Shown here: piece after piece, positions 41,434 through 55,152 of the stretch
Numbering within the stretch: position 1 is the first letter of the stretch
How the letters are laid out: the number at the start of each line of letters is the position of its first letter
Origin: Alphaproteobacteria bacterium
Lineage (GTDB): Bacteria > Pseudomonadota > Alphaproteobacteria > Micropepsales > Micropepsaceae
Assembly: GCA_025350465.1 (NCBI GenBank)
Contig: JANXXU010000011.1
Coordinates: 1 to 64,000 of the forward strand
Length of the DNA stretch: 64,000 nt
Direction: 5' to 3'
The notes under the pieces: generated by a model
What the model was told of the DNA's origin: nothing
The model's input: the letters and a program-made list of their open reading frames with translations, nothing else
Databases searched by the model: none
Translations under genes and position numbers: made by a program

Positions 41434-43305
41434 TCATTTCTGCGCCAGCAGTTTTTCCATCTCGTCCATGATCCGGTTCATGCGCGCCTCGAGCGCGCGA
41501 TGGACAAGCGGCGTCGCCATGTCGATGCCGGCCGTCTTGAAGAGATTGTAGGGATAGTCCGAGCCGCCGGCACTCAAGAGCGCGAGGAAGCGTTTCTGCG
41601 CCGCCTCGCCGTTGCGCGTTAGGTCGTCGGCGAGATAGGTCGCGCCGGCCAGCGACGTCGCATAGTTGAAGACGTAGAAGCCGCGATAGAAATGCGGAAT
41701 GAATGCCCATTCGATGCAGTATTTCGGATCGATCTTCATCACGCCCTTGGCATCGCCGTAGTAGCGCTTGAGCAGGTCGCAATAGAGTCCGGTCAGTTTC
41801 TCGCCGGTCAGCGGCTCGCCTTTTTCGGCAAGCCCATGTGCGTTGAGCAGGAATTCCGTGAAGAGCGCCTGACGGAAATACGTCGTGCGAATGCCGTCCA
41901 GAATTTCGTTGTCGAACGCGAGTTTTTCCTCCTTCGACTTCGCCCGCGCCAACACGTAATTCTGCACCAGCACTTCGTTCGAGATCGACGCCGTCTCGGC
42001 GACGAAGGTCGCGTAGTTGGACAATTCGAACGGCTGATTGTGCTTGGTCAGCATGGTGTGAACGGCATGTCCCCATTCATGCGCGAAGGTGGAGAGCGAA
42101 CTGTAATCGCCGTTGTGATTGAGCAGCAGATATGGATGCACGTCGTAGGCACCGCCGTTCATGTAGCCGCCCGAACGCTTGCCGTCGTGCGGATAGACGT
42201 TCATCCAGCGCGCCGCGAATCCTTGACGCAGAATGCCGAGATATTCCTCGCCGAGCGGCGCCAGGGCTTCGAGCGTGATGCGCTTTGAATCGTCCACATT
42301 GTAGGTATTGGCGACCGACGTCGTCGGCGCGTAGACATCGTAATAGGCCTGATCCTTCAGGCCGAGCATCCGGGCGCGCAGTTTCAAATAACGCTGAAAC
42401 GTCGGCAGCTCGCGGTTGACTTCCGCAATCAGAGTTCGCACGACGGGTTCGGGCATGTTGTCGCCGAAGAGCTCGGCATCCAGCGTCGATTTGAAGTGTC
42501 GCGCTTTGGCGTTGAACACTTGGCCCATGATTTCGGCCTGGAGATTGGCGCCGAACGTTCCCTCATAAGCTTTGTATGCGGCCCAGAAGGCATCGAAGAC
42601 CTTCTTCCGGTCGTCGCGATTGCGCGATTGTCGGTAGAGTTCGTACGTCGAGTCGCTGAGCTTCACCGATTTGCCGTCGGCGAACGTCACGCTTGGAAAC
42701 GGCAGCTCGCCGTTCGCGAAGATCGTGTAGACCGTCTGCGGCTGGGCGAGCGTATTGGCGACTTGCGCCATGACGCGTTCGCTCTCTTCGCCGAGCGCGT
42801 GCGGAGCGCTGCGTAAAACATCGCGCAAACCGAACGCGTGCGGCTTCAGACCGGGTTCGCTCGCAATGAAAGCCTCGATCTTCGACGCGCCGATCGATTG
42901 AATCTCAGGCTTGAGCCAGCTTGTCGCTTCGACAAAGCGCGCGTTCAAATTGTCGGCGGCCGTATTGCGCGCTTGGTTCGGGGCGACGCGAACGTCTTCA
43001 TCCGCTTTGAGCGAGGCATAGACCGCAAGCCGCGCGATGCGTTTGTTCAGCAACGAGATCGCATCGCACGCCTTGCGCAGCGACGCGGCGTCGCGCCCAA
43101 GCGTTCCTTTGAAGTGCACGAGCTTTTCGATGTCGCTCTGAACGGCCGCCTGCTCGCCCTCCCAAGCGGCCGCGTTGGGGTAGAGGTCGCCCAGATCCCA
43201 CATGCCGTCCGCTTGCGCAGGCTGGGTCGGTGCGGCGTGCGCCAGCGCGAACGAAATCGCGCTCGCAAGGCAAAACGCGATCGAGCGTCGGATCAAAGCG
43301 GCCAT
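41434..43305 (-). CDS. pepF: Secreted oligoendopeptidase F
   Basis: 623 residues of peptidase family M3B. The zinc site FAHEWGHAVHTML is intact, with the downstream Glu in VAETASISNEVL. Unlike cytosolic PepF proteins it begins with a clear signal peptide (IRRSIAFCLASAISFALAHA), so it probably degrades peptides in the periplasm. It converges on the FlgC-like gene with 4 nt between stops. Confidence 0.92.
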   Translation of the reverse strand: MAALIRRSIAFCLASAISFALAHAAPTQPAQADGMWDLGDLYPNAAAWEGEQAAVQSDIEKLVHFKGTLGRDAASLRKACDAISLLNKRIARLAVYASLKADEDVRVAPNQARNTAADNLNARFVEATSWLKPEIQSIGASKIEAFIASEPGLKPHAFGLRDVLRSAPHALGEESERVMAQVANTLAQPQTVYTIFANGELPFPSVTFADGKSVKLSDSTYELYRQSRNRDDRKKVFDAFWAAYKAYEGTFGANLQAEIMGQVFNAKARHFKSTLDAELFGDNMPEPVVRTLIAEVNRELPTFQRYLKLRARMLGLKDQAYYDVYAPTTSVANTYNVDDSKRITLEALAPLGEEYLGILRQGFAARWMNVYPHDGKRSGGYMNGGAYDVHPYLLLNHNGDYSSLSTFAHEWGHAVHTMLTKHNQPFELSNYATFVAETASISNEVLVQNYVLARAKSKEEKLAFDNEILDGIRTTYFRQALFTEFLLNAHGLAEKGEPLTGEKLTGLYCDLLKRYYGDAKGVMKIDPKYCIEWAFIPHFYRGFYVFNYATSLAGATYLADDLTRNGEAAQKRFLALLSAGGSDYPYNLFKTAGIDMATPLVHRALEARMNRIMDEMEKLLAQK

Positions 43306-43764
43306 GAGGTCCCCGCAGAAATGCCCATTGACGTTACCGCCGACTGAGCCGCGAGCGCGAAGGTTTGATTGTCAATTAAGCGTCATCGCCACGCTAGAGC
43401 CAGACAAACGCGGACATACGTCTCAGTCCCCCGATCCCGGGGCAACGCGTTGTCTTTCTGCGACTTGTTAGATTGACATGACACGATTGGCGGCTGGTCG
43501 GCGCAACTTGGTTTGCCCAGAAAATATCCGTCATTATTGGGTGATTGCTGCGCCGCACAAACGGGCAGCGGCTGCTCAAAAGCGTGGCGTTTGTGCAATA
43601 CTGCGCCGCTCTCTGTGACGGAATTGCCAATCTTCGTTGACTTGAGTGTGTGGAACGTGTGCTCTGATTTCGAGGGATGCTAGGGGCAGAGGCATGTGGG
43701 CGACACATGCGTTCTCCGTTTCGAAGCAAAGAAAATTGAAGACCGGGTAGGAGGAAATTGCGTC
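43306..43764. promoter_or_regulatory. 459-bp promoter region upstream of the DUF1302 cluster
   Basis: No gene is supported. The region separates pepF from the divergent DUF1302 gene and holds both promoters. A CCCCG-ATCC-CGGGG hairpin lies near 43430-43443. One GTGACGG half-site (43615-43621) and a CCGTCAT near 43528 resemble the clustered half-sites found before the diiron genes. I could not place a convincing -35/-10 pair. A GGAGGAA ribosome site precedes ATG 43765. Confidence 0.45.
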
Positions 43765-46548
43765 ATGCCGAAGTCAAATAGCATGCGGTTGGGGTATCTG
43801 GGGTCGGTCGCGTTGATAGCTCTTGCGGGGGCATATTCCGGCGCGCAGGCGGCACAAATTCAGTTTGGCGAGGTCAGTCTGACACTCGACAACAATCTGG
43901 CGGTCGGCATCTCCGACCGGGTGGCGTCTCGAAACACGGCCTATCTGCCCGAAAGCAACGGCGGTCCGAAGTCGCTGAACGCGGCTGACGCCGGGTCGAA
44001 CACACTGCCGGCAATCAGCGGGTTGACCGGAACAGGTATCGCGGCACTTTGTAACCCGCTCTGCGGCCCGTTGACGGGCAACATGACGACGACGAACAAT
44101 CCGTACGCTTTCGCGGGAAGCATCAACGCGGACGATGGCCGGCTGAACTACACGTCCGGCGACATCATCGGCGCGCCCGTCAAGATGACCTCGGAATTGA
44201 CCGCAGTGTGGAGAAACTACAAGGCGTTCGTCCGCGGCTACGGCTTCTATGATTTCGTGCTGACGGACTTCAACCACGGTGACCGCTCGTTGTTAAACGA
44301 CGATTCCAAGGGTCTCGTCGGTCGCGACTATCGCCTGCTCGACGCGTTCATCTCGGCTGATTTCACCTTCGCCGATATGCCGCTCAACATTCGCGTCGGC
44401 AAACAAGTCATCAACTGGGGTGAAAGCACGTTCCTCTTGAACGGCTTGAACAACTTCAATCCGATCGATGTCACCGCCTATCGCCGTCCCGGCGCGGAAA
44501 TCAAAGACATTCTGCTTCCGGTCAATGCGATCGAGGGTTCGATCTCGTTGCCGTACAACGTCTCGCTCGCGGGCTATTATGCGCTCGGCTGGGATCGCTA
44601 TCGTCTCGATCCGGCCGGCTCGCCGTTCTCTGCCACCGATGTCGTTGACGCGACCTCGGGTTTCGGCGGCAACCAGAATGCAGCCAGCTTCCTCTCCGGC
44701 GGCCGCTTTGCGGGCTACAAACTCAATTGCGGCACGGGAACCGACCAGACGACGAACGGCTTGGCCTTCGCGCGTAGCATAAATCTCCTGCCGGGGACCA
44801 ACGGCACCTACAGTGTTCAGATCCCAGGCTTGAACAGCCCTGTGGGTACGCGCCCGAACTGTACCCAGGACGTGGTCGCGGGGTCGTCGTTCTTCAACTA
44901 CGCGACACCGGTCGTTATCGGCCAGGCCGAGGCGACACGATTCGGCAAAGTGTCGATCATGAATTCGACCGGTTATGCGGCGCAGTCCAGCGCCTATGAA
45001 GGCATCGTCGATCGCGGCAAGGACCTTTATCCGAGCCAATCGGGCGACTTCGGCCTCAATGTGAAATATCTGATGGAGGGCGGCGTACTCGACGGTTACG
45101 AGTTCGGCGGTTACTACCAGAACTACTCGAGCCGCCTGCCTTTCGTTGATGAGACGACTGGGTCGCCGCAACTCGGCCTGATTACGGTTGGCAATTCGTC
45201 GAACATCCCGGTGGCAGTCACGCCGGCCTCGGTAGGATCAAATCTGGCCAGCCGCTATGCGGGCCCCGCAGGTTGCGTCAATCCGGCGTTCGGTCCGATC
45301 GCAAACCTTGCCGATCCTCGTGCGGCCGCTCTGCAGATTTTGCCTGCGAGCGACCCACAGAACTTGCTGAACGTCAACTCGGTGGTAACCGCGACCAACT
45401 TCATTCCGCCGACGCGGTTCAAGGATACGTCGATCGATCCGTTCACGGGCACGCACGATACGCTTGCCTACCAGTTGGTTCACGACAATCTGGGAGCGGT
45501 TGTTGCGGCTAACAGTGCAACGGCCATTGTCACGAACTTCGGCACCGGCCTCTATCACAGCAACTACGGCCTGGGTAACTTCCATTCGATCGGCAATATG
45601 ATCGAATTCAACTGTGCCCTCGACCTGCTGCAGTCGGGCGTGGTTGCCGGCTTGCCGATGAACTTCAACGGCACGATGTTGGTGAACGCGTACAATCAGA
45701 TCGGCTTGTCGCTTTCCTATCCGAGCGGCATCGAACAGTATGGCTTTAGCTGGGCCGGTACGATCGGAACGTGGGGAATTCAAGGTGAATTGACCTACCG
45801 TCCGAAGGCGCCCTTCCAGGCTGACACCGACCAGGTCACGATCGCGGCGGTGACACAGGAATGCGCCTTTGTCGCGGCGGGCAACGTGGGCAGCTTCAAC
45901 TTTGAGCCGCTCGACACGATGCTCACTCGCTGCGACCCGACCCACGTCGGCAACAGCCGGATCAACGGCGAAATCTTCAACAGCATGTATACCGGCCAAG
46001 TCGGCTCGACCGCGACGTTCACGAACTCGGAGTGGTTCGTCGACGCGATCGGTGCGGACCTCGGTATATTCGTTCCTGAAATCGGCTTTGTGCATGTACC
46101 CGGTGTAGAGAAGACGTGGATTGACAATAACCCGCTCGTTGGCGGCAAGTATGTCGGCCCAGTCCAATACGGAAACACCGGCTGTCAGGGTTCGGACCTG
46201 CCGCTGGGTGGCTTGCTCGCCCTCGATCACAAGTCGAGCAAGGAATGCCGCCCGACGGACACGTCAGCTGGCTTGGTGTTGCTCGCGATCACGCAATACA
46301 ACAACGCCTTCAACACCGGCTTCGTGGTGGCACCGCAGGCGGCGTTCTCTTGGGACTTCTACGGCACGACGCCGGCCCCCTACGGGAACTACATGGAGGG
46401 CCGGATGGCGGTCAGCCTTGGCGTGAACGGTACGCTTAACAACAGCTTCACCATGGGCGTCAACTACACGAACTACTTCGGCGCCGGCATCAGGAACAAG
46501 TCGCAGGACCTGGACTATGTGTCTGCGAGCATGGGATACTCGTTCTAA
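43765..46548 (+). CDS. DUF1302 outer-membrane protein, unusually long
   Basis: About 927 residues from ATG 43765, which has GGAGGAA upstream. A signal peptide ends near AGAYSGAQAA. IQFGEVSLTLDNNLAVGISDR is the DUF1302 opening. Many short beta strands follow, including LNIRVGKQVINWGESTFLLNG, and the last residue is Phe in SMGYSF, the usual signal for beta-barrel assembly. Known members are more often 500-700 residues; the extra length appears as Gly/Asn-rich loops. It is presumably a barrel for hydrophobic molecules, paired with DUF1329. Confidence 0.85.
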   Translation: MPKSNSMRLGYLGSVALIALAGAYSGAQAAQIQFGEVSLTLDNNLAVGISDRVASRNTAYLPESNGGPKSLNAADAGSNTLPAISGLTGTGIAALCNPLCGPLTGNMTTTNNPYAFAGSINADDGRLNYTSGDIIGAPVKMTSELTAVWRNYKAFVRGYGFYDFVLTDFNHGDRSLLNDDSKGLVGRDYRLLDAFISADFTFADMPLNIRVGKQVINWGESTFLLNGLNNFNPIDVTAYRRPGAEIKDILLPVNAIEGSISLPYNVSLAGYYALGWDRYRLDPAGSPFSATDVVDATSGFGGNQNAASFLSGGRFAGYKLNCGTGTDQTTNGLAFARSINLLPGTNGTYSVQIPGLNSPVGTRPNCTQDVVAGSSFFNYATPVVIGQAEATRFGKVSIMNSTGYAAQSSAYEGIVDRGKDLYPSQSGDFGLNVKYLMEGGVLDGYEFGGYYQNYSSRLPFVDETTGSPQLGLITVGNSSNIPVAVTPASVGSNLASRYAGPAGCVNPAFGPIANLADPRAAALQILPASDPQNLLNVNSVVTATNFIPPTRFKDTSIDPFTGTHDTLAYQLVHDNLGAVVAANSATAIVTNFGTGLYHSNYGLGNFHSIGNMIEFNCALDLLQSGVVAGLPMNFNGTMLVNAYNQIGLSLSYPSGIEQYGFSWAGTIGTWGIQGELTYRPKAPFQADTDQVTIAAVTQECAFVAAGNVGSFNFEPLDTMLTRCDPTHVGNSRINGEIFNSMYTGQVGSTATFTNSEWFVDAIGADLGIFVPEIGFVHVPGVEKTWIDNNPLVGGKYVGPVQYGNTGCQGSDLPLGGLLALDHKSSKECRPTDTSAGLVLLAITQYNNAFNTGFVVAPQAAFSWDFYGTTPAPYGNYMEGRMAVSLGVNGTLNNSFTMGVNYTNYFGAGIRNKSQDLDYVSASMGYSF

Positions 46549-46592
46549 GGGCGGGGGCAACCGCACGGACCTATTAGGTGGAGGAAATGCAC

Positions 46593-47963
46593 GTGACGAA
46601 GACCAGACTACTTCTTACTGCCTCTGCTGTTGCGGTAGCGTTTGCTGCAACCAGCGCATGGGCCAAGGTGCCTGCCGACCAAGCTGCTCGGCTCGGTAAG
46701 GACCTGACGCCGATGGGTGGTGAGATGGCGGGGACGACCGATGGTTCGGTACCCGCTTGGACGGGCGGTCTCACCGCGCCGCCCGCTGGCGTCAAGTTCG
46801 ACGCCAAGACTCAGAACCCGCCCAACCCGTTCCCTGGCGATAAACCGGCTTTCACGGTGAACGCAGGCAACATGGGGCAATACGCTGACAAGCTGCTCGA
46901 CGGCTACAAACAGCTGATGAAGCTCTACCCGACCTATCACATGAACGTGTACCAATCGCGGCGCACGTGTTCCTTGCCGGAGTACGTTTACTCGGCGATC
47001 AAGAACAACGCGACGGTTGGCGACCTGACTGCGGATGGTGACGGCGTCACCGGCGCGATCATGGGCGTTCCGTTCCCCATCGCCTCGAACGGCATGGAAA
47101 TTGTTTGGAACAAGAAGCTCGGCTTCCGCAACTTCAAAGTCACGCGTCAGTTCGCGGCGGCGCCCGTTCAGCGTAACGGCTCGTACAACCTGATCACGGT
47201 TCAAGACGAAGCCATTTTGCGCTGGTCGGATCCTTCCAAGAAGCATGCGGAAGATCTGAACAACGTCTCGATCCTTTACATCGCGAACACGATCGCGCCG
47301 GCCCGTTTGGCGGGTAACGTGATTTTGGTTCACGAGTCGCTGAATGCGGCGGTCGATCCGCGCAAGGCTTGGTCGTACAATCCCGGCACGCGCCGCGTTC
47401 GTCGCGCTCCGGACATTGCCTATGACAATCCGGGCACGAACACGGACGCTATGTCGACGTCGGACGCCTTCGACGGCTACAACGGCGCCATGGATCGCTA
47501 CAACTGGACGACAAAGGGTCGTAGCGTAAAGTTCATCTCCTACAACGACTATGACGCGATCAACACCAAGTACGCGGACTTCGTGAAGCCCTCGCACTTG
47601 AACCAAGACCGCGTTCGTTATGAGCCGCATCGCGTGTGGACGGTCCAGGCCGACCTGAAGCCCGGCGCGCGGCATGTCTACGCCCGCCGCGTTATGCACC
47701 TCGACGAGGATGCGCAGATCGTTGACGCCGCCGAGAACTATGACGGCCGCGGCCAGCTGTGGCGCTTCCAGGAAGTGCAGGTTGCCAACTACTACCACGT
47801 TCCAACCTGCGGCGGCGCCGCGGAGATCGTGTACGACTTGCTTGACGGCCGCTATCTGGCGCTGTCGATGCGGAACGAGGAGCCGCCGGTGAACTACTTC
47901 GCCGACGAACTCCAGGAGAGCCGCTATACGCCGGAAGCCATCCGCACACTCGGCGTTCGCTGA
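46593..47963 (+). CDS. DUF1329 protein (LolA-like fold)
   Basis: About 456 residues. I favour the GTG at 46593: GGAGGAA lies at a proper distance, whereas ATG 46587 is too close to it. A signal peptide (LLLTASAVAVAFAATSAWA) is followed by the family start KVPADQAARLGKDLTPMGGE. The domain is related to LolA-type lipid carriers and almost always accompanies DUF1302. The likely role is to ferry a lipid-like molecule through the periplasm. The 44-nt gap to DUF1302 indicates one transcript. Confidence 0.88.
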   Translation: MTKTRLLLTASAVAVAFAATSAWAKVPADQAARLGKDLTPMGGEMAGTTDGSVPAWTGGLTAPPAGVKFDAKTQNPPNPFPGDKPAFTVNAGNMGQYADKLLDGYKQLMKLYPTYHMNVYQSRRTCSLPEYVYSAIKNNATVGDLTADGDGVTGAIMGVPFPIASNGMEIVWNKKLGFRNFKVTRQFAAAPVQRNGSYNLITVQDEAILRWSDPSKKHAEDLNNVSILYIANTIAPARLAGNVILVHESLNAAVDPRKAWSYNPGTRRVRRAPDIAYDNPGTNTDAMSTSDAFDGYNGAMDRYNWTTKGRSVKFISYNDYDAINTKYADFVKPSHLNQDRVRYEPHRVWTVQADLKPGARHVYARRVMHLDEDAQIVDAAENYDGRGQLWRFQEVQVANYYHVPTCGGAAEIVYDLLDGRYLALSMRNEEPPVNYFADELQESRYTPEAIRTLGVR

Positions 47964-47982
47964 GGCGGTTATGATGTGAAGT

Positions 47983-48024
47983 CGGCCGGCCTCCGTTTCT
48001 TCGGGGGCCGGCCGTTATCATTTT
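47983..48024 (+). terminator. Rho-independent terminator after the DUF1329 gene
   Basis: CGGCCGGCC (47983-47991) pairs perfectly with GGCCGGCCG (48006-48014), with a 14-nt loop, and TTATCATTTT follows. It lies within the cluster, 30 nt before the YCF48-like start, so it may attenuate expression of the downstream genes relative to DUF1302/DUF1329. Confidence 0.75.
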
Positions 48025-48054
48025 GAAGGCTCAATTTCGCCGGGAGTTCGGTTC

Positions 48055-49233
48055 ATGCTCGGGTCCAAGTTCAGACCGCTGATGTCTCGCGTCTCGCTCG
48101 CCGCGGCCCTTCTGGCGGCGCCGCATCTCGCCGCTCAGGCTTTCGCCACTGAAACGACGCTCAGCGACAAGCCCGCGGTGGCGACGTCGCATGCGACCGA
48201 GGCACTGCTCTTGGGCGTGGCGCGCGCCGGCTCTCGCATTGTGGCGGTCGGCGAATATGGCGACGTCGTCTTGTCGGACGATGACGGCAAGACCTGGCGC
48301 CAGGCGAAATCCGTTCCCACCCAAGTCACGTTGACCGCGGTTTGTTTCGTCGACGACAAGATCGGCTGGGCGGTCGGCCACGATACCGTCATCCTCCAAA
48401 CGACGGACGCCGGCGAGACCTGGCACAAACAATTCGGCGGCGGCGCCAGCGACAACGCGTTGCTCACGGTAGCGTTTTGGGACGCCAACCATGGCCTCGC
48501 CATGGGCGCCTTCAACTTCACGGCCGAGACAAAGGACGCCGGCAAAACGTGGACCGAGCGCAAAACGCTCAATCCCATTCAAGTGAAGCCCGGCACGGTA
48601 CCGGCGGCTCCGGCGCCGGGCGGCGCGCCTGGGGCAGCTCCACCGGCACCGGCAGCTCACGCACCGGCAGCACATGCGCCAGCGGCCGGCGCAGATGATG
48701 GTGCTGCGGATTCCAAAGATCCCTATGCCGCCGCTACGGGTGACGAGAACCATCTCAACGCAGCGTTCGTGGGCCCTGCCGGCGCCATGTACGTGGCGGC
48801 GGAAGCGGGCGCCGTATTTCGTTCGTTCGACAACGGTGTGACCTGGGACAAGATCCTGACGGGTTACAACGGATCGTTTTGGGGTGGCTTGGCGGCCAAG
48901 GATGGCACGCTCTACATCACCGGCATGCACGGCAATATTTGGCATTCGACCGATAAGGGCGCGATCTGGACGAAGCTCGACACCGCCGGCGCCGACCAGT
49001 CCGTCGCGATGGGCCTGCAGCTCAAGGACGGCAAGTTCGTCTTCGTCGGACTTGGTGGTCAGGTCCTTTATTCGGCCGACGGTCAGAAATTTACGCTGAC
49101 CTATCGCGAGGATCGTAAGGGCTTGAACGCGGTCCTCGAAGACGGCGCCGATCGGCTGCTGGTCTTCGGCGAGACCGGGATCAAAGAACAGCCGATGACA
49201 CCCCCGGCGACGGCCCCGCAGCCGCAGGGCTAA
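48055..49233 (+). CDS. YCF48-like secreted beta-propeller
   Basis: 392 residues. A signal peptide ends near AAQAFA. Asp-box/BNR-like repeats recur: SDDDGKTW, TTDAGETW, TKDAGKTW, SFDNGVTW and STDKGAIW, each with the D-G-x-W spacing of YCF48-type propellers. An Ala/Pro/His low-complexity insertion interrupts the blades at about residues 182-217. Such propellers often accompany DUF1302/DUF1329 and may act as a scaffold or binding protein in the envelope. Confidence 0.85.
   Translation: MLGSKFRPLMSRVSLAAALLAAPHLAAQAFATETTLSDKPAVATSHATEALLLGVARAGSRIVAVGEYGDVVLSDDDGKTWRQAKSVPTQVTLTAVCFVDDKIGWAVGHDTVILQTTDAGETWHKQFGGGASDNALLTVAFWDANHGLAMGAFNFTAETKDAGKTWTERKTLNPIQVKPGTVPAAPAPGGAPGAAPPAPAAHAPAAHAPAAGADDGAADSKDPYAAATGDENHLNAAFVGPAGAMYVAAEAGAVFRSFDNGVTWDKILTGYNGSFWGGLAAKDGTLYITGMHGNIWHSTDKGAIWTKLDTAGADQSVAMGLQLKDGKFVFVGLGGQVLYSADGQKFTLTYREDRKGLNAVLEDGADRLLVFGETGIKEQPMTPPATAPQPQG
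48600..48695 (+). repeat. Low-complexity Ala/Pro/His insertion in the propeller gene
   Basis: The DNA carries related GCACCGGCAGCTCAC-type units coding for APAAH repeated in tandem, preceded by Pro/Gly/Ala codons. The repeats are imperfect at the third codon position. This would form a flexible linker between propeller blades and may vary in length between strains. Confidence 0.7.
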
Positions 49234-49337
49234 GAACTAGACCTTTCCGGTACTGAGAACGGGCGCGCCAGCCGCCTGTGTCAGGCTGCGCTGTGGCCGG
49301 CCGGGGAATTGGTGGAACCGCATGGCCCTGACTGGAG

Positions 49338-49369
49338 GTGACGGTCGAGCCCGTCACGGATCGTGACGG
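49338..49369. promoter_or_regulatory. Three alternating GTGACGG half-sites before the diiron genes
   Basis: GTGACGG (49338-49344), its complement CCGTCAC (49351-49357) and GTGACGG again (49363-49369) alternate in orientation. The last two form a perfect 19-bp palindrome, CCGTCACG-GAT-CGTGACGG. The spacing of 12-13 bp is near one helical turn. The site lies 85-115 bp upstream of the first diiron gene, which suggests a dimeric regulator binding cooperatively. Confidence 0.6.
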
Positions 49370-49453
49370 TAGCGTCATTTTTACTTGTCTCCGCCGCTAG
49401 TCGTCGTACCATCGGGCAACAGCGCAACCGAATTGCCCTTATGGAGGATTGAG

Positions 49454-50578
49454 ATGAGCGGATTGACCAACATCACCAAGGACCCGGCCTACAACGCCGT
49501 CGATCCTGACGATTTTCGCTCCATGATGGATATCGAGCGCTACGGCGCGCGAACGTCCGCTTTCGACAAGATCATTTCCGCGACTCACGATCACTTCTGG
49601 GATCCGCTCGACAAGAAATACATCGATTTCGCCGAGCCCTTCGATCTGGAGAAGAACTACATTGTCGACCCCGACCTGATGACCGAGCTGAAAACCGCCG
49701 TCGGCGATAAGCTCGACGAGCGCGGGAAGATCAAGCTCACCAATCTCAACACGCTGTGGTCGTTCTCGAGCATCTTGCACGGCGAGCAAGGCGCGCTCTC
49801 GCTCTCGGCGTCCCTCTGCCACATTCTTCGTGATCCGGGCGCGCAGGAATACGCCGCCAATCAGACGCGCGAGGAAGCGCGCCACGTCACCGCCTTCAGC
49901 CGCTATATCCACGCGCGCTGGGGCAAGCCCGTGGCCGTCGGCCCCGCGCTCGGTGATCTTCTGACCGACCTCGTGCTTTCGCCGCTCGTCTGGAAGAAGC
50001 TCGTCGGCATGCAGATGCTGGTCGAGGGCTTGGCCATGGGCGCCTTTGCGACCTTCTATCAAAAGGGAAACGATCCCCTGATGGTCAAGCTGTGCCAGCT
50101 CGTCATGACGGACGAGGCCTTCCACCACAAATTCGGAAAAATATGGGCCGACCGCACGATCCCGCACCTTTCCAAAGGCGAGGCCGAGAAGATCGAGGAT
50201 TGGGCCTGGGAGGTCTTCCAGGTGCTGCTCTTCAACCTCGCAAGCCCCGATCAGAAGAGTTGGATATACGTTGAACTTGGGCTTGATCCCGCCTGGGTGC
50301 AGGCCGCGTTCATGGAAGCCATGACCGACGCCAACATCCGTACCGAGCTGCAGGAAGGGACGAACATCTTCCGCGTGCTTATCAAAACCTTGCTCAAGGC
50401 CGGCATCATCACCGACCGTACGCGCAACAACTACGCGGCCTTCATCGACATGTCCGAACTCCATGCCGAGGGCGAGCGCATGATCGGCGACGACATCGCC
50501 GAGGAAGGCATCAAATATCTGATGAAGCTGAACGGCGGCCACATGTTGCGCACGCCTTCAAGCATCGCGGCGGAATAG
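49454..50578 (+). CDS. Ferritin-like diiron protein, copy 1
   Basis: 374 residues from ATG 49454, with GGAGG upstream. The complete carboxylate-bridged diiron ligand set is visible: Glu111 (HGEQGAL), Glu141-x-x-His144 (EEARH), Glu191 (LVEGLA) and Glu221-x-x-His224 (DEAFHHKFG). This is the E/ExxH/E/ExxH pattern of R2-like oxidases and oxygenases. There is no signal peptide, so it is cytoplasmic. The substrate is unknown; an O2-dependent hydroxylation, desaturation or N-oxidation is plausible. A paralogue follows 19 nt downstream. Confidence 0.85.
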   Translation: MSGLTNITKDPAYNAVDPDDFRSMMDIERYGARTSAFDKIISATHDHFWDPLDKKYIDFAEPFDLEKNYIVDPDLMTELKTAVGDKLDERGKIKLTNLNTLWSFSSILHGEQGALSLSASLCHILRDPGAQEYAANQTREEARHVTAFSRYIHARWGKPVAVGPALGDLLTDLVLSPLVWKKLVGMQMLVEGLAMGAFATFYQKGNDPLMVKLCQLVMTDEAFHHKFGKIWADRTIPHLSKGEAEKIEDWAWEVFQVLLFNLASPDQKSWIYVELGLDPAWVQAAFMEAMTDANIRTELQEGTNIFRVLIKTLLKAGIITDRTRNNYAAFIDMSELHAEGERMIGDDIAEEGIKYLMKLNGGHMLRTPSSIAAE

Positions 50579-50597
50579 CGACTAGAGGGACGGGCAA

Positions 50598-51719
50598 ATG
50601 ACCGAATTGACCAACATCACCAAGGACGCCGCCTACGATGCGGTGGATCCGAAGGATTTTCGCTCGATGATGGATGTCGAGCGTTATGGCGCGCGCTCGA
50701 CGGCCTTCGACAAGATCATTTCGGCGACGCACGATCATTTCTGGGACCCGCTTGATCCCAAATACATCGACTTCTCGGCGCCGTTCGATCTCGAGAACGA
50801 ATACATCATGCCGCCGTTCTTGAATCTCGATCTGCAAACCGCGATCGGCGACAGGTTGAACGAAAAGCAGAAGATCAAGCTGGTCAACGCCTCCGCTCAT
50901 TGGGGTTTGTCGTCGATTCTGCACGGCGAGCAGGGCGCGCTGTCGCTGTCGGCCTCGCTTTGTCACATTCTGCGCGATCCGGGCGCCCAGGAATACGCGG
51001 CCAACCAAGCGCGCGAGGAAGCGCGTCACGTCACCGGCTTCACGAAGTACGTCCAGGCGCGTTGGGGCAAACCGCTGCCGGTCGGACCAGCGCTCGGCAA
51101 CCTTCTCTCCGAGATGGTGCTCTCGCCTTATGTTTGGAAGAAACTTGTCGGCATGCAGATGCTGGTCGAAGGTCTCGCCATGGGTGCCTTCGCCACCAAT
51201 TATCAGTACACGAACGATCCATTGCTGAAGCGCCTTTGCCAACTCGTCATGACGGACGAGGCCTTCCACCACAAATTCGGCAAGATATGGGCCGATCGAA
51301 CGATTCCGCATCTCTCCGAGACGGAGCGCAATCTGATCGAGGATTGGGCGGCGCAAGTATTCCAGGGTCTGCTCTTCAACCTCGGCAGCCCGGAGCAAAA
51401 GAAGCCGATCTACGCGCAGTTCGGCATCGATTGGGAATGGGCGCAAAACGCCTTCCGCGAAGCCTTCACCGACGCGCGCGTGCGCGAACGCATGAAGGAT
51501 TCCACCAACATCTTCCGCGTCTTGATCAAGACCTTGCTCAAAGCCCGGATCATCACCGACCGCACGCGCGGCACTTATGCGGCCTTTGTCGATATGGCCG
51601 AATTACACCACGAGGGCGACCGTATGATCGGCGACGACATCGCCGAGGAAGGCATCAAATATCTGATGCAGATCAACGGCGGCATGGGCCGCACGCCGAT
51701 AGGTATCGCAGCGGAATAA
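50598..51719 (+). CDS. Ferritin-like diiron protein, copy 2
   Basis: 373 residues, aligning end to end with copy 1 at roughly 70% identity by eye. The same ligands occur: HGEQGAL, EEARH, LVEGLA and DEAFHHKFG. Differences cluster at about residues 70-105 and 240-300. These could line the substrate tunnel or the dimer face. The ribosome site GAGGGACGGGCAA is weaker than for copy 1. The two may form a heterodimer or act on different substrates. No redox partner is adjacent. Confidence 0.85.
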   Translation: MTELTNITKDAAYDAVDPKDFRSMMDVERYGARSTAFDKIISATHDHFWDPLDPKYIDFSAPFDLENEYIMPPFLNLDLQTAIGDRLNEKQKIKLVNASAHWGLSSILHGEQGALSLSASLCHILRDPGAQEYAANQAREEARHVTGFTKYVQARWGKPLPVGPALGNLLSEMVLSPYVWKKLVGMQMLVEGLAMGAFATNYQYTNDPLLKRLCQLVMTDEAFHHKFGKIWADRTIPHLSETERNLIEDWAAQVFQGLLFNLGSPEQKKPIYAQFGIDWEWAQNAFREAFTDARVRERMKDSTNIFRVLIKTLLKARIITDRTRGTYAAFVDMAELHHEGDRMIGDDIAEEGIKYLMQINGGMGRTPIGIAAE

Positions 51720-51991: not shown

Positions 51992-52417
51992 ATGCGAACC
52001 AAACTGCAGTGGACGAGCGTTATCCTGTTTATGGCCGTCAGCACCTTTCTCGTGGCGTTCGGACTGCTCTATTCCAATGCCAACGACCTGCTTTGGTTCC
52101 ATGCCGCGGCCGTACCGCCGGAGGCGCTCGAAAAAATTCGCCCGCTCTATTTCGCGTTGATGAAACTGATCGGCGGCGCTTCGATCGGGCTCGGGATACT
52201 GGGCGGCTTCGTCGTGCTGGGTCCCATGCGCCAAGGCGTGCCTTGGGCCGCGACATTCGTGTCGTTGACCTATTGGATCGCCTTCGGCGTTGCGGCGTTT
52301 ACCGCAATCCGCCTTAACGAACTTACGAACGCGCCGGTCGCCTGGTACAACATGGCGATCCTGTCGGCCCTCACGGCGGCCGCTTACGGTGCGCACACGC
52401 TGGCCTCGCGGCGTTGA
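51992..52417 (+). CDS. Four-helix integral membrane protein of unknown function
   Basis: 141 residues from ATG 51992, which has GGAGG at a 6-nt spacing; an ATG at 51965 is weaker. Four hydrophobic helices are evident, with conserved-looking polar spots between the first two (LLYSNANDLLWFH) and few charges elsewhere. No motif points to a transporter or enzyme family. The 272 bp before it, after the second diiron gene, hold nothing that I can support as a gene. Confidence 0.7.
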   Translation: MRTKLQWTSVILFMAVSTFLVAFGLLYSNANDLLWFHAAAVPPEALEKIRPLYFALMKLIGGASIGLGILGGFVVLGPMRQGVPWAATFVSLTYWIAFGVAAFTAIRLNELTNAPVAWYNMAILSALTAAAYGAHTLASRR

Positions 52418-52475
52418 GGTTGGGCACTGCCCGGCCTCTTCATTTGTGGCCCACGGCTTGAGTAATCTGTGGGCC

Positions 52476-53123
52476 ATGAGCCTCTTTCCCGACCTTGCCG
52501 AAACACTGCCAGACGGCGTTCGCCTTTGGCGCCGGCGTCTCGCACCCGGTGCGCAGATGGCCTTGCTCGACGATGTCGCGCGCACGCTTGAGGCGGCGCC
52601 GCCCTATCGCCCGCAAATGCGCACCGGGGCCTATGTGATCAATCGCATGTCGAATTGCGGATCGCTCGGATGGATCTCGGACACGCGCGGCTATCGCTAC
52701 GAGCCGCTCCATCCCGAGACGGGCAAGGCGTGGCCGCCGATTCCCGTCGAACTCGGGCGGATCGGGGCCGACTGCACGCGTGAAGCGGGGTTCGCGGACT
52801 ACGAACCGGACGCCTGCTTGATCAACATCTACGAAGCGAGCGGCAAGTTGAACCTGCATCGCGACTACGATGAGGCGGATTTTCGCTGGCCGGTGGTCTC
52901 GTTCAGCCTGGGCGCGGACGCTGAATTCCTGCTTGGCGGTTTCAAGCGCGCCGATCCGACACACCGCCTCGTGCTGCACTCCGGAGACATCCTCGTCTTC
53001 GGCGGCCCGAGCCGCCTGCGCTACCACGGGGTGCGCAAGATTTTTCCCGGCACCTCGCCCGTCGATCATTCGGTTTTGCCGGAAGGCGGGCGGATCAATC
53101 TAACGCTGCGGCGCGCCCGTTGA
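52476..53123 (+). CDS. alkB: AlkB-type 2-oxoglutarate/Fe(II) DNA-repair dioxygenase
   Basis: About 215 residues from ATG 52476. It repairs alkylated bases such as 1-methyladenine by oxidative demethylation. The iron ligands HRDYDE (HxD) and the later His in RYHGVRK are present, with the 2-oxoglutarate-binding Arg in RINLTLRRAR. The N-terminal RTGAYVINRMSNCGSLGW matches the nucleotide-recognition lid. It is not next to ada; it stands alone here. Confidence 0.93.
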   Translation: MSLFPDLAETLPDGVRLWRRRLAPGAQMALLDDVARTLEAAPPYRPQMRTGAYVINRMSNCGSLGWISDTRGYRYEPLHPETGKAWPPIPVELGRIGADCTREAGFADYEPDACLINIYEASGKLNLHRDYDEADFRWPVVSFSLGADAEFLLGGFKRADPTHRLVLHSGDILVFGGPSRLRYHGVRKIFPGTSPVDHSVLPEGGRINLTLRRAR

Positions 53124-53188
53124 TTTGCTCGCCTGCGGGCGCTCTTCTAACATCGCCGGCGATCCAAGCCGCAACAAGCGAGAGCTTC

Positions 53189-54340
53189 ATGGCTGACCTC
53201 CAGGCTGCCGCCCGCGGCTTCCACGCAGAGCTTCGCTCGCGCGCCGGCGAAATCGAGTCCGGGCGCAGGTTGCCCGCCGACATTGCGAAGCGCTTTGCCG
53301 AAGCAGGCTTCTATAGGCCGTGCGTGCCGCAAGCCTACGGTGGCCTTGAAAGCGATCCGCTGACGCTCTCCAATTTGATCGAAACGATTGCCGAAGCTGA
53401 CGGCTCGGCCGCCTGGTGCGTGATGATCGCGGCGACGACGGGATTGGTCGCGGCCTATATGCCGCCCGCAACCGCGCGCGTGATCTTCGAGCGCGATCCC
53501 AACGTCATCCTCGCTGGCGTGTTCGCACCACGCGGCAAGGCCGTTGAGGAGGGCGCGCAGTATGTCGTCAACGGCCGGTGGCAATGGGGCTCGGGCTCTC
53601 CGAACGCGAAATGGATTGCTGGCGGCTGCGTTGTCCTGCGGGACGGAAAGCCCGCGTTGTTACCGTCGGGTGTGCCCGATTCGCGCATGATGATTGTCGC
53701 CGTCGAAGACGCCGAGTTGATGAACAACTGGGACGTCTCGGGCCTCTGCGGCACGGGCAGTCAGGATTTTGCCTTCAAGGACGTTCGCGTTGCGAAGGAA
53801 ATGAGCGTGAGCTTGATGTCGGACAAACCCTTGGCGCGCCCGCTCTATGCCTTCCCGGTGTTCGGGTTGCTCGCCGCGGGAATCGCCTCCGTTATGCTGG
53901 GCCTCGGGCGCGCCGCGATTTGCGAATTGATCGCCATCGCCGGCGGTAAGACACCTGAGGGCCAGCGCAAACCGCTGGCCGCACGAGCCAAGACGCAAGA
54001 AGACGTCGCCGAGGCCGAAGCGCTGTTGAGTTCGGCCCGCGCCTATTTTCGCGACAGTATCGCAAAGGCTTGGGATGAAGCGCGCCGCGGCGAGAGCTTG
54101 TCGGTCGAAGCGCGCCGCGATCTGCGTCTCTCGGCGACGCACGCGGCACGCTCAAGCGTTCGCGCTGTCGATCTCATGTATCATCTCGGCGGCGGCACCT
54201 CGGTTTATAGGTCTTCACCGTTGCAGCGCATCTTTCGTGACGTCCACGTAGCGAGTCAGCATATGATGGTGGCGCCCACAACGATGGAGCTTGCGGGAAG
54301 GCTGCTTCTCGGACAGGAAGCGGAGCTATCGCAGCTATGA
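53189..54340 (+). CDS. Acyl-CoA-dehydrogenase-fold flavin monooxygenase-like protein
   Basis: About 383 residues from ATG 53189. The helical N-domain (ADIAKRFAEAGFYRPCVPQAYGG), a beta middle domain (VNGRWQWGSGSPNAKW) and a C-terminal four-helix bundle (VDLMYHLGGGTSVYRSSPLQR, RIFRDVHVASQHMM) match the HpaB/DszC-type group of two-component flavin monooxygenases better than true acyl-CoA dehydrogenases; the catalytic Glu of the latter is not evident. It starts after alkB and overlaps dapB by ATGA. Confidence 0.82.
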   Translation: MADLQAAARGFHAELRSRAGEIESGRRLPADIAKRFAEAGFYRPCVPQAYGGLESDPLTLSNLIETIAEADGSAAWCVMIAATTGLVAAYMPPATARVIFERDPNVILAGVFAPRGKAVEEGAQYVVNGRWQWGSGSPNAKWIAGGCVVLRDGKPALLPSGVPDSRMMIVAVEDAELMNNWDVSGLCGTGSQDFAFKDVRVAKEMSVSLMSDKPLARPLYAFPVFGLLAAGIASVMLGLGRAAICELIAIAGGKTPEGQRKPLAARAKTQEDVAEAEALLSSARAYFRDSIAKAWDEARRGESLSVEARRDLRLSATHAARSSVRAVDLMYHLGGGTSVYRSSPLQRIFRDVHVASQHMMVAPTTMELAGRLLLGQEAELSQL

Positions 54341-55152
54341 CCGACATCCGCCTCGTGATCGCGGGCGCCACGGGCCGCATGGGCCACGCCATCATCCGCG
54401 CCGCTCTGAAAACTCCGGGCATAAAATTGCATGCGGGCCTCGCGTCGCCCTCGAATCCGGCGCAAGGAAAAGATCTGGGCGCGCTGATCGGTCACGAGTC
54501 TTTAGGCGTCTTTGTCGGCGCCGATCCGCTCGCGGCCATCGCCAAGGCCGATGCCGTAGTGGATTTTACGACGCCGTCGGTCAGCTTGGCGCTCGCCGAT
54601 CTGTGCGCTCAAGCGCGCATCGTTCATGTCGTCGGCACAACCGGTTTCGATGACAGCGCCGGCAAGCGCTTCGCCGCCGCCGCGCGTCACGCCACGATCG
54701 TCAAATCAGGCAATTTCAGTCTCGGCGTCAACGTCCTGGCGGGATTGGTCGAACTGGCCGCGCGCGCCCTCGGTCCCGATTTCGATGTCGAATTGATGGA
54801 GATCCATCATCGCTTGAAGGCCGATGCGCCGTCGGGGACGGCGTTGCTGCTCGGCGAAGCGGCGGCGAAGGGTCGTGGCGGTAATCTCTTCGAGTTGCGC
54901 ACGAAGCCGCATGACGGTCTGGCCGGTCCACGACCGCGCGGCACCATCGGCTTTGCCAGCCTGCGGGGCGGGACCGTCGTCGGGGATCATGGCGCGATCT
55001 TGGCAGGCGAGGGCGAGCGCCTCGAGCTTTGGCACAAGGCCGAGGACCGGACCATCTTTGCCAAAGGCGCGCTCAAGGCCGCGCTGTGGGGCCAAGGCAA
55101 GGGGCCCGGTCTCTTCGACATGCAGGATGTTTTAGGTTTGCGCGCGCGTTAG
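54337..55152 (+). CDS. dapB: 4-hydroxy-tetrahydrodipicolinate reductase
   Basis: 271 residues; the second committed step of the lysine/diaminopimelate branch. The nucleotide motif VIAGATGRMGHAII, the GTTGF loop, the catalytic EIHHRLKADAPSGTAL and the C-terminal H/D region are present. The ATG overlaps the previous stop by 4 nt, so it is coupled to the flavin enzyme gene. Its TAG shares TTAG with the convergent DUF2244 stop. Confidence 0.96.
   Translation: MTDIRLVIAGATGRMGHAIIRAALKTPGIKLHAGLASPSNPAQGKDLGALIGHESLGVFVGADPLAAIAKADAVVDFTTPSVSLALADLCAQARIVHVVGTTGFDDSAGKRFAAAARHATIVKSGNFSLGVNVLAGLVELAARALGPDFDVELMEIHHRLKADAPSGTALLLGEAAAKGRGGNLFELRTKPHDGLAGPRPRGTIGFASLRGGTVVGDHGAILAGEGERLELWHKAEDRTIFAKGALKAALWGQGKGPGLFDMQDVLGLRAR

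Follow-up and report, generated by a model that had tools for sequence, protein, structure and literature searches.

Downstream of three genes for an outer-membrane barrel, a periplasmic carrier and a secreted propeller, a 64,000-nucleotide stretch of alphaproteobacterial DNA from the family Micropepsaceae (hereafter the window) carries two genes for diiron proteins on the same strand. The locus raises the question of whether the envelope genes and the diiron genes belong to one system. DUF1302, DUF1329 and the diiron family are all common and functionally undefined. Their conserved links to both halves of one transporter, and the operator that the diiron paralogues have in common, make them a testable system, in which cargo, regulator and enzyme substrate each offer a handle for finding the others. 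A literature search for diiron proteins together with DUF1302 found no paper joining the two.

Gene cassette and its relation to Ame-type transporters

ORF positions and family profile matches placed all five predicted genes on the forward strand between 43.8 and 51.7 kb (Table 1). As originally described, the DUF1302 barrel is long and has a C-terminal phenylalanine (...GYSF, counted from the ATG at 43765), and no RND/MMPL gene was seen at the locus. DUF1329 adjoins DUF1302 directly downstream, with the ATG at 46587 preferred over the GTG at 46578 of the ORF call. DUF1302 was found as a single gene copy in the window's genome and YCF48 gave one match only, while DUF1329 is represented by two genes, the second copy lying at G000:C10:83744.

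Table 1. Features of the locus and of the distant RND-D3 pair. Coordinates refer to the window unless a contig (C27) of the same genome is given.
Feature	Coordinates	Strand	Evidence or remark
DUF1302 outer-membrane barrel, AmeA-like, 927 aa, signal peptide	43765..46548	+	PF06980, E 1.6e-125
DUF1329 LolA-superfamily periplasmic protein, AmeB-like	46587..47963	+	PF07044, E 3.4e-126
Terminator-like hairpin, 13 bp with 12 GC pairs, then TTATCATTTT	47983..48014	+	Between DUF1329 and YCF48
YCF48/BNR-repeat (PSII_BNR) secreted propeller, AmeC-like	48055..49233	+	PF14870, 61.1 bits (cut-off 27)
Palindrome TGACGGTAGCGTCA	49364..49377	+	Upstream of D1; consensus TGACGC-N2-GCGTCA with AAA/TTT flanks
Putative promoter TTGTCT-N16-TACCAT	49385..49412	+	Sequence reading
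D1 diiron protein, 374 aa, ferritin-like, AurF/ADO/R2-related	49454..50578	+	PF11583 weak, 18.8 bits; invariant ligands
D2 diiron protein, 373 aa, ferritin-like	50598..51719	+	AlphaFold model, pLDDT 83.9; fold matches
AmeD-like HAE3 RND	C27:111907-114633	-	Divergent from D3
D3, third diiron paralogue	C27:115232-116344	+	Divergent neighbour of the RND

By sequence, the first three genes match AmeABC, three components of the described hydrophobe transporter AmeABCD. AmeABCD of Castellaniella defragrans consists of DUF1302, DUF1329 and COG4447 proteins and an HAE3 RND; it is up-regulated on monoterpene, and cells from which it is deleted tolerate monoterpene less well (PMC6394551). The window locus has DUF1302, DUF1329 and a COG4447/YCF48-like propeller in the same order, and its genome encodes an HAE3 RND akin to the AmeD-type pumps. 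However, the cassette itself is without an RND gene and has two diiron genes in its place, and a third diiron gene adjoins the distant RND. We class the cassette as related to AmeABCD and probably working like it, but not as a complete member, because the RND is missing from it. The four-gene A-B-C-RND order was found contiguous on public plasmids of Azoarcus, Massilia and Pseudomonas.

A precedent for a split system exists in Pseudomonas putida, where growth on Tween 20 needs PP_0765/PP_0766 (DUF1302/DUF1329) together with a periplasmic protein and an RND pump that are encoded elsewhere, PP_2018/PP_2019 (PMC10866462). There too the DUF1302/DUF1329 pair stands apart from the RND, whereas at the window locus YCF48 is kept with the pair, and diiron genes are not described in the PP_0765/PP_0766 system. 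In Delftia and in a benzene-degrading culture, DUF1329 'nanopod' genes also point to hydrophobic substrates (PMC13101534).

The cassette varies in copy number among relatives: it occurs as a tandem duplicate upstream of a diiron pair in G002 (L043:2-11107, contig C17), and likewise in two copies in G005:C207. DUF1302 length was considered as a marker of diiron linkage and holds within the order; it was not used, since long unlinked copies occur in other families (G032, G193). An anti-phage defence role was rejected, as PADLOC gave no match. Upstream of the cassette, on the opposite strand, lies an oligoendopeptidase F gene (41434-43305) with an apparent signal peptide, unusual for this normally cytoplasmic peptidase.

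The diiron proteins D1 and D2

D1 and D2 are 75% identical. The start of D1 was set at the ATG preceded by GGAGG, and the TTG at 49385 given in the ORF list is more likely part of a -35 element. The ligand set E111, E141/H144, E191 and E221/H224 (D2 numbering) is invariant in 35 relatives, and in the helical, fairly confident AlphaFold model of D2 (pTM 0.85) these residues lie on separate core helices of a four-helix core. Re-alignment against the PDB gave R2lox (Z 20.7), RNR R2, CmlI and AurF (Z 19.8) as the closest solved folds, all with Z of about 20, although Foldseek's own E-values for the matches were only about 1e-3. Together, the invariant ligands, the helical model and these fold matches support the assignment of D1 and D2 as predicted ferritin-like diiron-carboxylate proteins, whose reaction is not told by the fold.

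None of the curated models for AurF, aldehyde-deformylating oxygenase or R2lox claims D1 or D2. Cyanobacterial aldehyde-deformylating oxygenase is the best sequence-profile match among solved structures (residues 107-233, E 0.005), but the score against TIGR04059 is far below its cut-off (20.7 versus 222.65 bits), and the window protein is longer, with an extra C-terminal region. In R2lox, too, a four-helix core carries a dinuclear metal site, and one such R2-like ligand-binding oxidase, GkR2loxI, has been reported as an alkane monooxygenase (PMC10867098). Against this likeness, identity is about 16-18% over the aligned residues, and the NCBIfam R2-like ligand-binding oxidase models gave no match to the window proteins; a divergent paralogue elsewhere in the window's genome, D4, matched them weakly and under the cut-off.

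The relation to AurF raises a further explanation, namely that the diiron proteins are AurF-type N-oxygenases whose N-oxygenated product is exported by the cassette. All 35 family members have AurF (PF11583) as their top Pfam match, and the arylamine N-oxygenases AurF and CmlI share the ferritin-like diiron fold. However, the window proteins score 23.9 and 18.8 bits against a gathering score of 29.6, which D4 passes with 49.1 bits; aldehyde-deformylating oxygenase is the better sequence match among solved structures; the gene context differs, and biosynthetic genes were not seen nearby. We regard this explanation as very improbable. AurF has a seventh iron ligand, a third histidine; the residue that may correspond to it, four before E221, is Val217, at a site outside the profile alignment.

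In the family tree, D1 and D2 belong to different clades, both of which contain cassette-linked orthologues, and the RND-linked diiron genes form further clades. A recent tandem duplication as the source of the pair was therefore rejected. D1 and D2 are an old pair of cytoplasmic proteins, most likely O2-activating oxygenases. The genes that follow the pair in the window (52290-55152) encode an AlkB-type 2OG oxygenase, an HsaA-like acyl-CoA dehydrogenase-fold protein and DapB, and related gene sets recur downstream in relatives.

Possible transcription units and a conserved palindrome

The original prediction treated the five genes as one run; as a joint transcript this run found no support. 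From DUF1302 onward (to the ATG of DUF1329 and so on), the intergenic gaps are 38, 91, 220 and 19 bp. The hairpin at 47983-48014 has an equivalent in all eight species loci that were folded, and some relatives have a second terminator-like hairpin after YCF48. The 220-bp gap contains, in this order, the palindrome, the motif TTTTTAC and the promoter-like pair (49364-49412 overall), and the spacing between promoter and palindrome is similar in relatives. A single operon was rejected as the default because the hairpin is conserved and the diiron pair has a putative promoter of its own, with a conserved promoter/operator that is absent from the DUF1302 promoter. The five-gene run is thus probably not one operon; DUF1302-DUF1329, YCF48 and D1-D2 may form separate units, with read-through possible between them.

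The palindrome is conserved upstream of most diiron genes in the family; D2 has none of its own. The 1.63 Mb of loci contained 70 exact TGACG-N4-CGTCA sites, of which 60 lay no more than 260 bp upstream of diiron genes, compared with one match each for three control palindrome patterns in the same loci. Across 73 distinct upstream regions the operator extends to AAA-N-TGACGC-N2-GCGTCA-N-TTT and usually stands a few bases ahead of a TTG -35-like element. The window's genome carries it upstream of D1, D3 and D4. The D4 paralogues share about 34-39% identity with D2, and in ten genomes all ten had the operator, none with more than one mismatch. In the window's genome and in G001, D4 is preceded by a 2Fe-2S ferredoxin gene, which hints at the electron donor. 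The operator was also found upstream of a Tistrella plasmid homologue (53% identical) and, in Parvibaculum-like genomes, at CYP125-like P450 genes sitting between two diiron genes.

The operator was not found in the upstream regions of DUF1302, DUF1329 or YCF48, and an operator common to their promoters was rejected on this basis; a near match with one mismatch, 326 bp ahead of DUF1329, falls within the coding sequence of DUF1302. The diiron clade beside Fec-type transport genes likewise had no operator upstream. Most other exact sites in the window's genome are inside coding regions and apparently occur by chance. We propose that the diiron genes form their own putative regulon through the TGACGC-N2-GCGTCA operator, placed just upstream of a sigma-70-like -35 element; this is the most novel part of the findings on the locus.

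Two sites elsewhere in the window's genome were recorded separately. Upstream of a LiuR-like MerR gene, the exact site TTGACGTAAACGTCAA (L148, G000:C5:11115) resembles the diiron operator except in its inner bases; no regulator was assigned to the operator. An exact operator, together with a CTTGAAA promoter-like element, precedes a gene for a 109-aa membrane protein (L162:2305-2694, G000:C44), a possible further regulon member.

Linkage of transporter and diiron genes and its possible function

In at least 14 genomes from five genera of the family, and in one genome of another family (G209, matching L068), diiron genes are immediately preceded by DUF1302, DUF1329 or YCF48, so the linkage expected from the original prediction does recur. 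In a class sample of 241 genomes, DUF1302 was present in 40 and the diiron family in 37; 18 genomes had both, against 6.1 expected (phylogeny not controlled), and in these the genes were mostly unlinked. Many alphaproteobacteria (G014, G043 and others) carry diiron genes without DUF1302 or an AmeD-like RND. Conserved in five genera yet mostly unlinked in the class, the cassette-diiron linkage is real but lineage-limited.

The diiron family also accompanies the pump. Two RNDs in the window's genome, on contigs C27 and C10, strongly match the AmeD-like profile, and the former is back to back with D3. Among 86 genomes of the order, all 17 RND-carrying genomes had a diiron gene as divergent neighbour of the RND (gaps of about 390-620 bp), and a strong-scoring DUF1329 cassette was present in 15 of these 17 but in none of the 69 RND-lacking genomes; the two RND-carrying genomes without such a cassette are 82-86% complete, and because the genomes are related by descent, neither the RND-diiron nor the cassette counts are independent events, and P values make the case look stronger than it is. 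With the RND adjoining D3, a transporter of a known kind has two links to the diiron family, itself undescribed and marked by a common operator.

The main rival to a shared cargo is that there is no coupling, and that a class-wide diiron regulon with its own role, such as fatty-acid or isoprenoid oxidation, came to lie beside the cassette and the RND gene by chance in one lineage and was kept there by descent. This would fit the separate promoter and operator of the diiron pair, the hairpin between DUF1329 and YCF48, the unlinked state of diiron genes and cassette in most other families and the occurrence of diiron genes in genomes without the transporter. It accords poorly with two separate linkages that involve complementary transporter halves and different diiron clades, with the strict RND-diiron pairing (17/17) and with the excess of DUF1302-diiron co-occurrence given above, in which phylogeny was not controlled. 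We consider it rather unlikely, and functional coupling of transporter and diiron proteins likely.

The preferred reading is that diiron oxygenases under common control are allied with a hydrophobe transporter encoded in two parts and act on the cargo of this transporter; we hold it to be evenly balanced between right and wrong. The barrel, the LolA-like carrier and the propeller would be the envelope parts of an AmeABCD-type transporter, and the HAE3 AmeD-like RND encoded back to back with D3 on the other contig would serve as its inner-membrane pump. The cargo that the transporter takes across the envelope would be a lipid-like molecule, aliphatic or isoprenoid. The diiron enzymes, receiving electrons from a ferredoxin-type donor, would oxidise this molecule in the cytoplasm as part of its catabolism; in some relatives CYP125-like P450s and acyl-CoA enzymes would take part as well. 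The scheme builds on observed gene content, conserved neighbourhoods, ligand residues and fold and on the operator sequence common to the diiron genes, while we infer the oxygenase activity, the substrate, the use of the distant pump and the direction of transport. The original prediction that the cluster moves and oxidises a hydrophobic molecule has thus gained an AmeABCD-type cassette on the transport side, whereas oxidation of the cargo stays conjectural.

Gene neighbourhoods elsewhere bear on the kind of chemistry. Diiron paralogues were found next to genes for acyl-CoA ligases, acyl-CoA dehydrogenases, enoyl-CoA hydratase and P450s and, among transport functions, next to a YhdP-like intermembrane gene and Fec-type genes. 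We read these neighbours as pointing to oxidation of an aliphatic or isoprenoid lipid, with the Ame-type system moving the substrate. The cargo could instead be a product of the cell and not food: a membrane lipid (fatty acid, hopanoid or carotenoid) that is hydroxylated or desaturated by the diiron proteins and taken to the outer membrane by the transporter. Consistent with this, the HAE3 relatives HpnN carry hopanoids (PMC6394551), and one diiron clade adjoins YhdP/AsmA-like intermembrane transport genes. However, the neighbours of diiron genes in relatives (acyl-CoA ligase, acyl-CoA dehydrogenase, enoyl-CoA hydratase and CYP125-like P450) point to catabolism, and in the Ame-type systems that have been characterised the role is to let cells grow on external hydrophobes or tolerate them, which makes envelope lipid modification quite improbable.

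Returning to catabolism of a transported molecule, the findings suggest that transport and oxidation of some oily compound go together in these little-studied bacteria. A more specific version is offered tentatively, with somewhat less confidence than the general one: the Ame-type transporter would be encoded at two loci, each half with a diiron paralogue, as one system, and a single regulator would read TGACGC-N2-GCGTCA. Held equally tentatively, this regulator would control the cell's diiron paralogues and, in Parvibaculum-like relatives, the CYP125-like P450 as well. If true, the AmeABCD model would extend from tolerance and transport to transport with dedicated cytoplasmic oxygenases.

Two further observations concern the pump. 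In the window's genome the RND-D3 pair (L120:10908-15345, G000:C27) closely follows dnaA-, recF- and gyrB-like genes, which usually surround a replication origin, and relatives have the pair at the same place. In G006, the genes for a second AmeD-like RND and a second DUF1329 protein point away from each other (G006:C185:3247-7085), which suggests another partial transporter in the genus.
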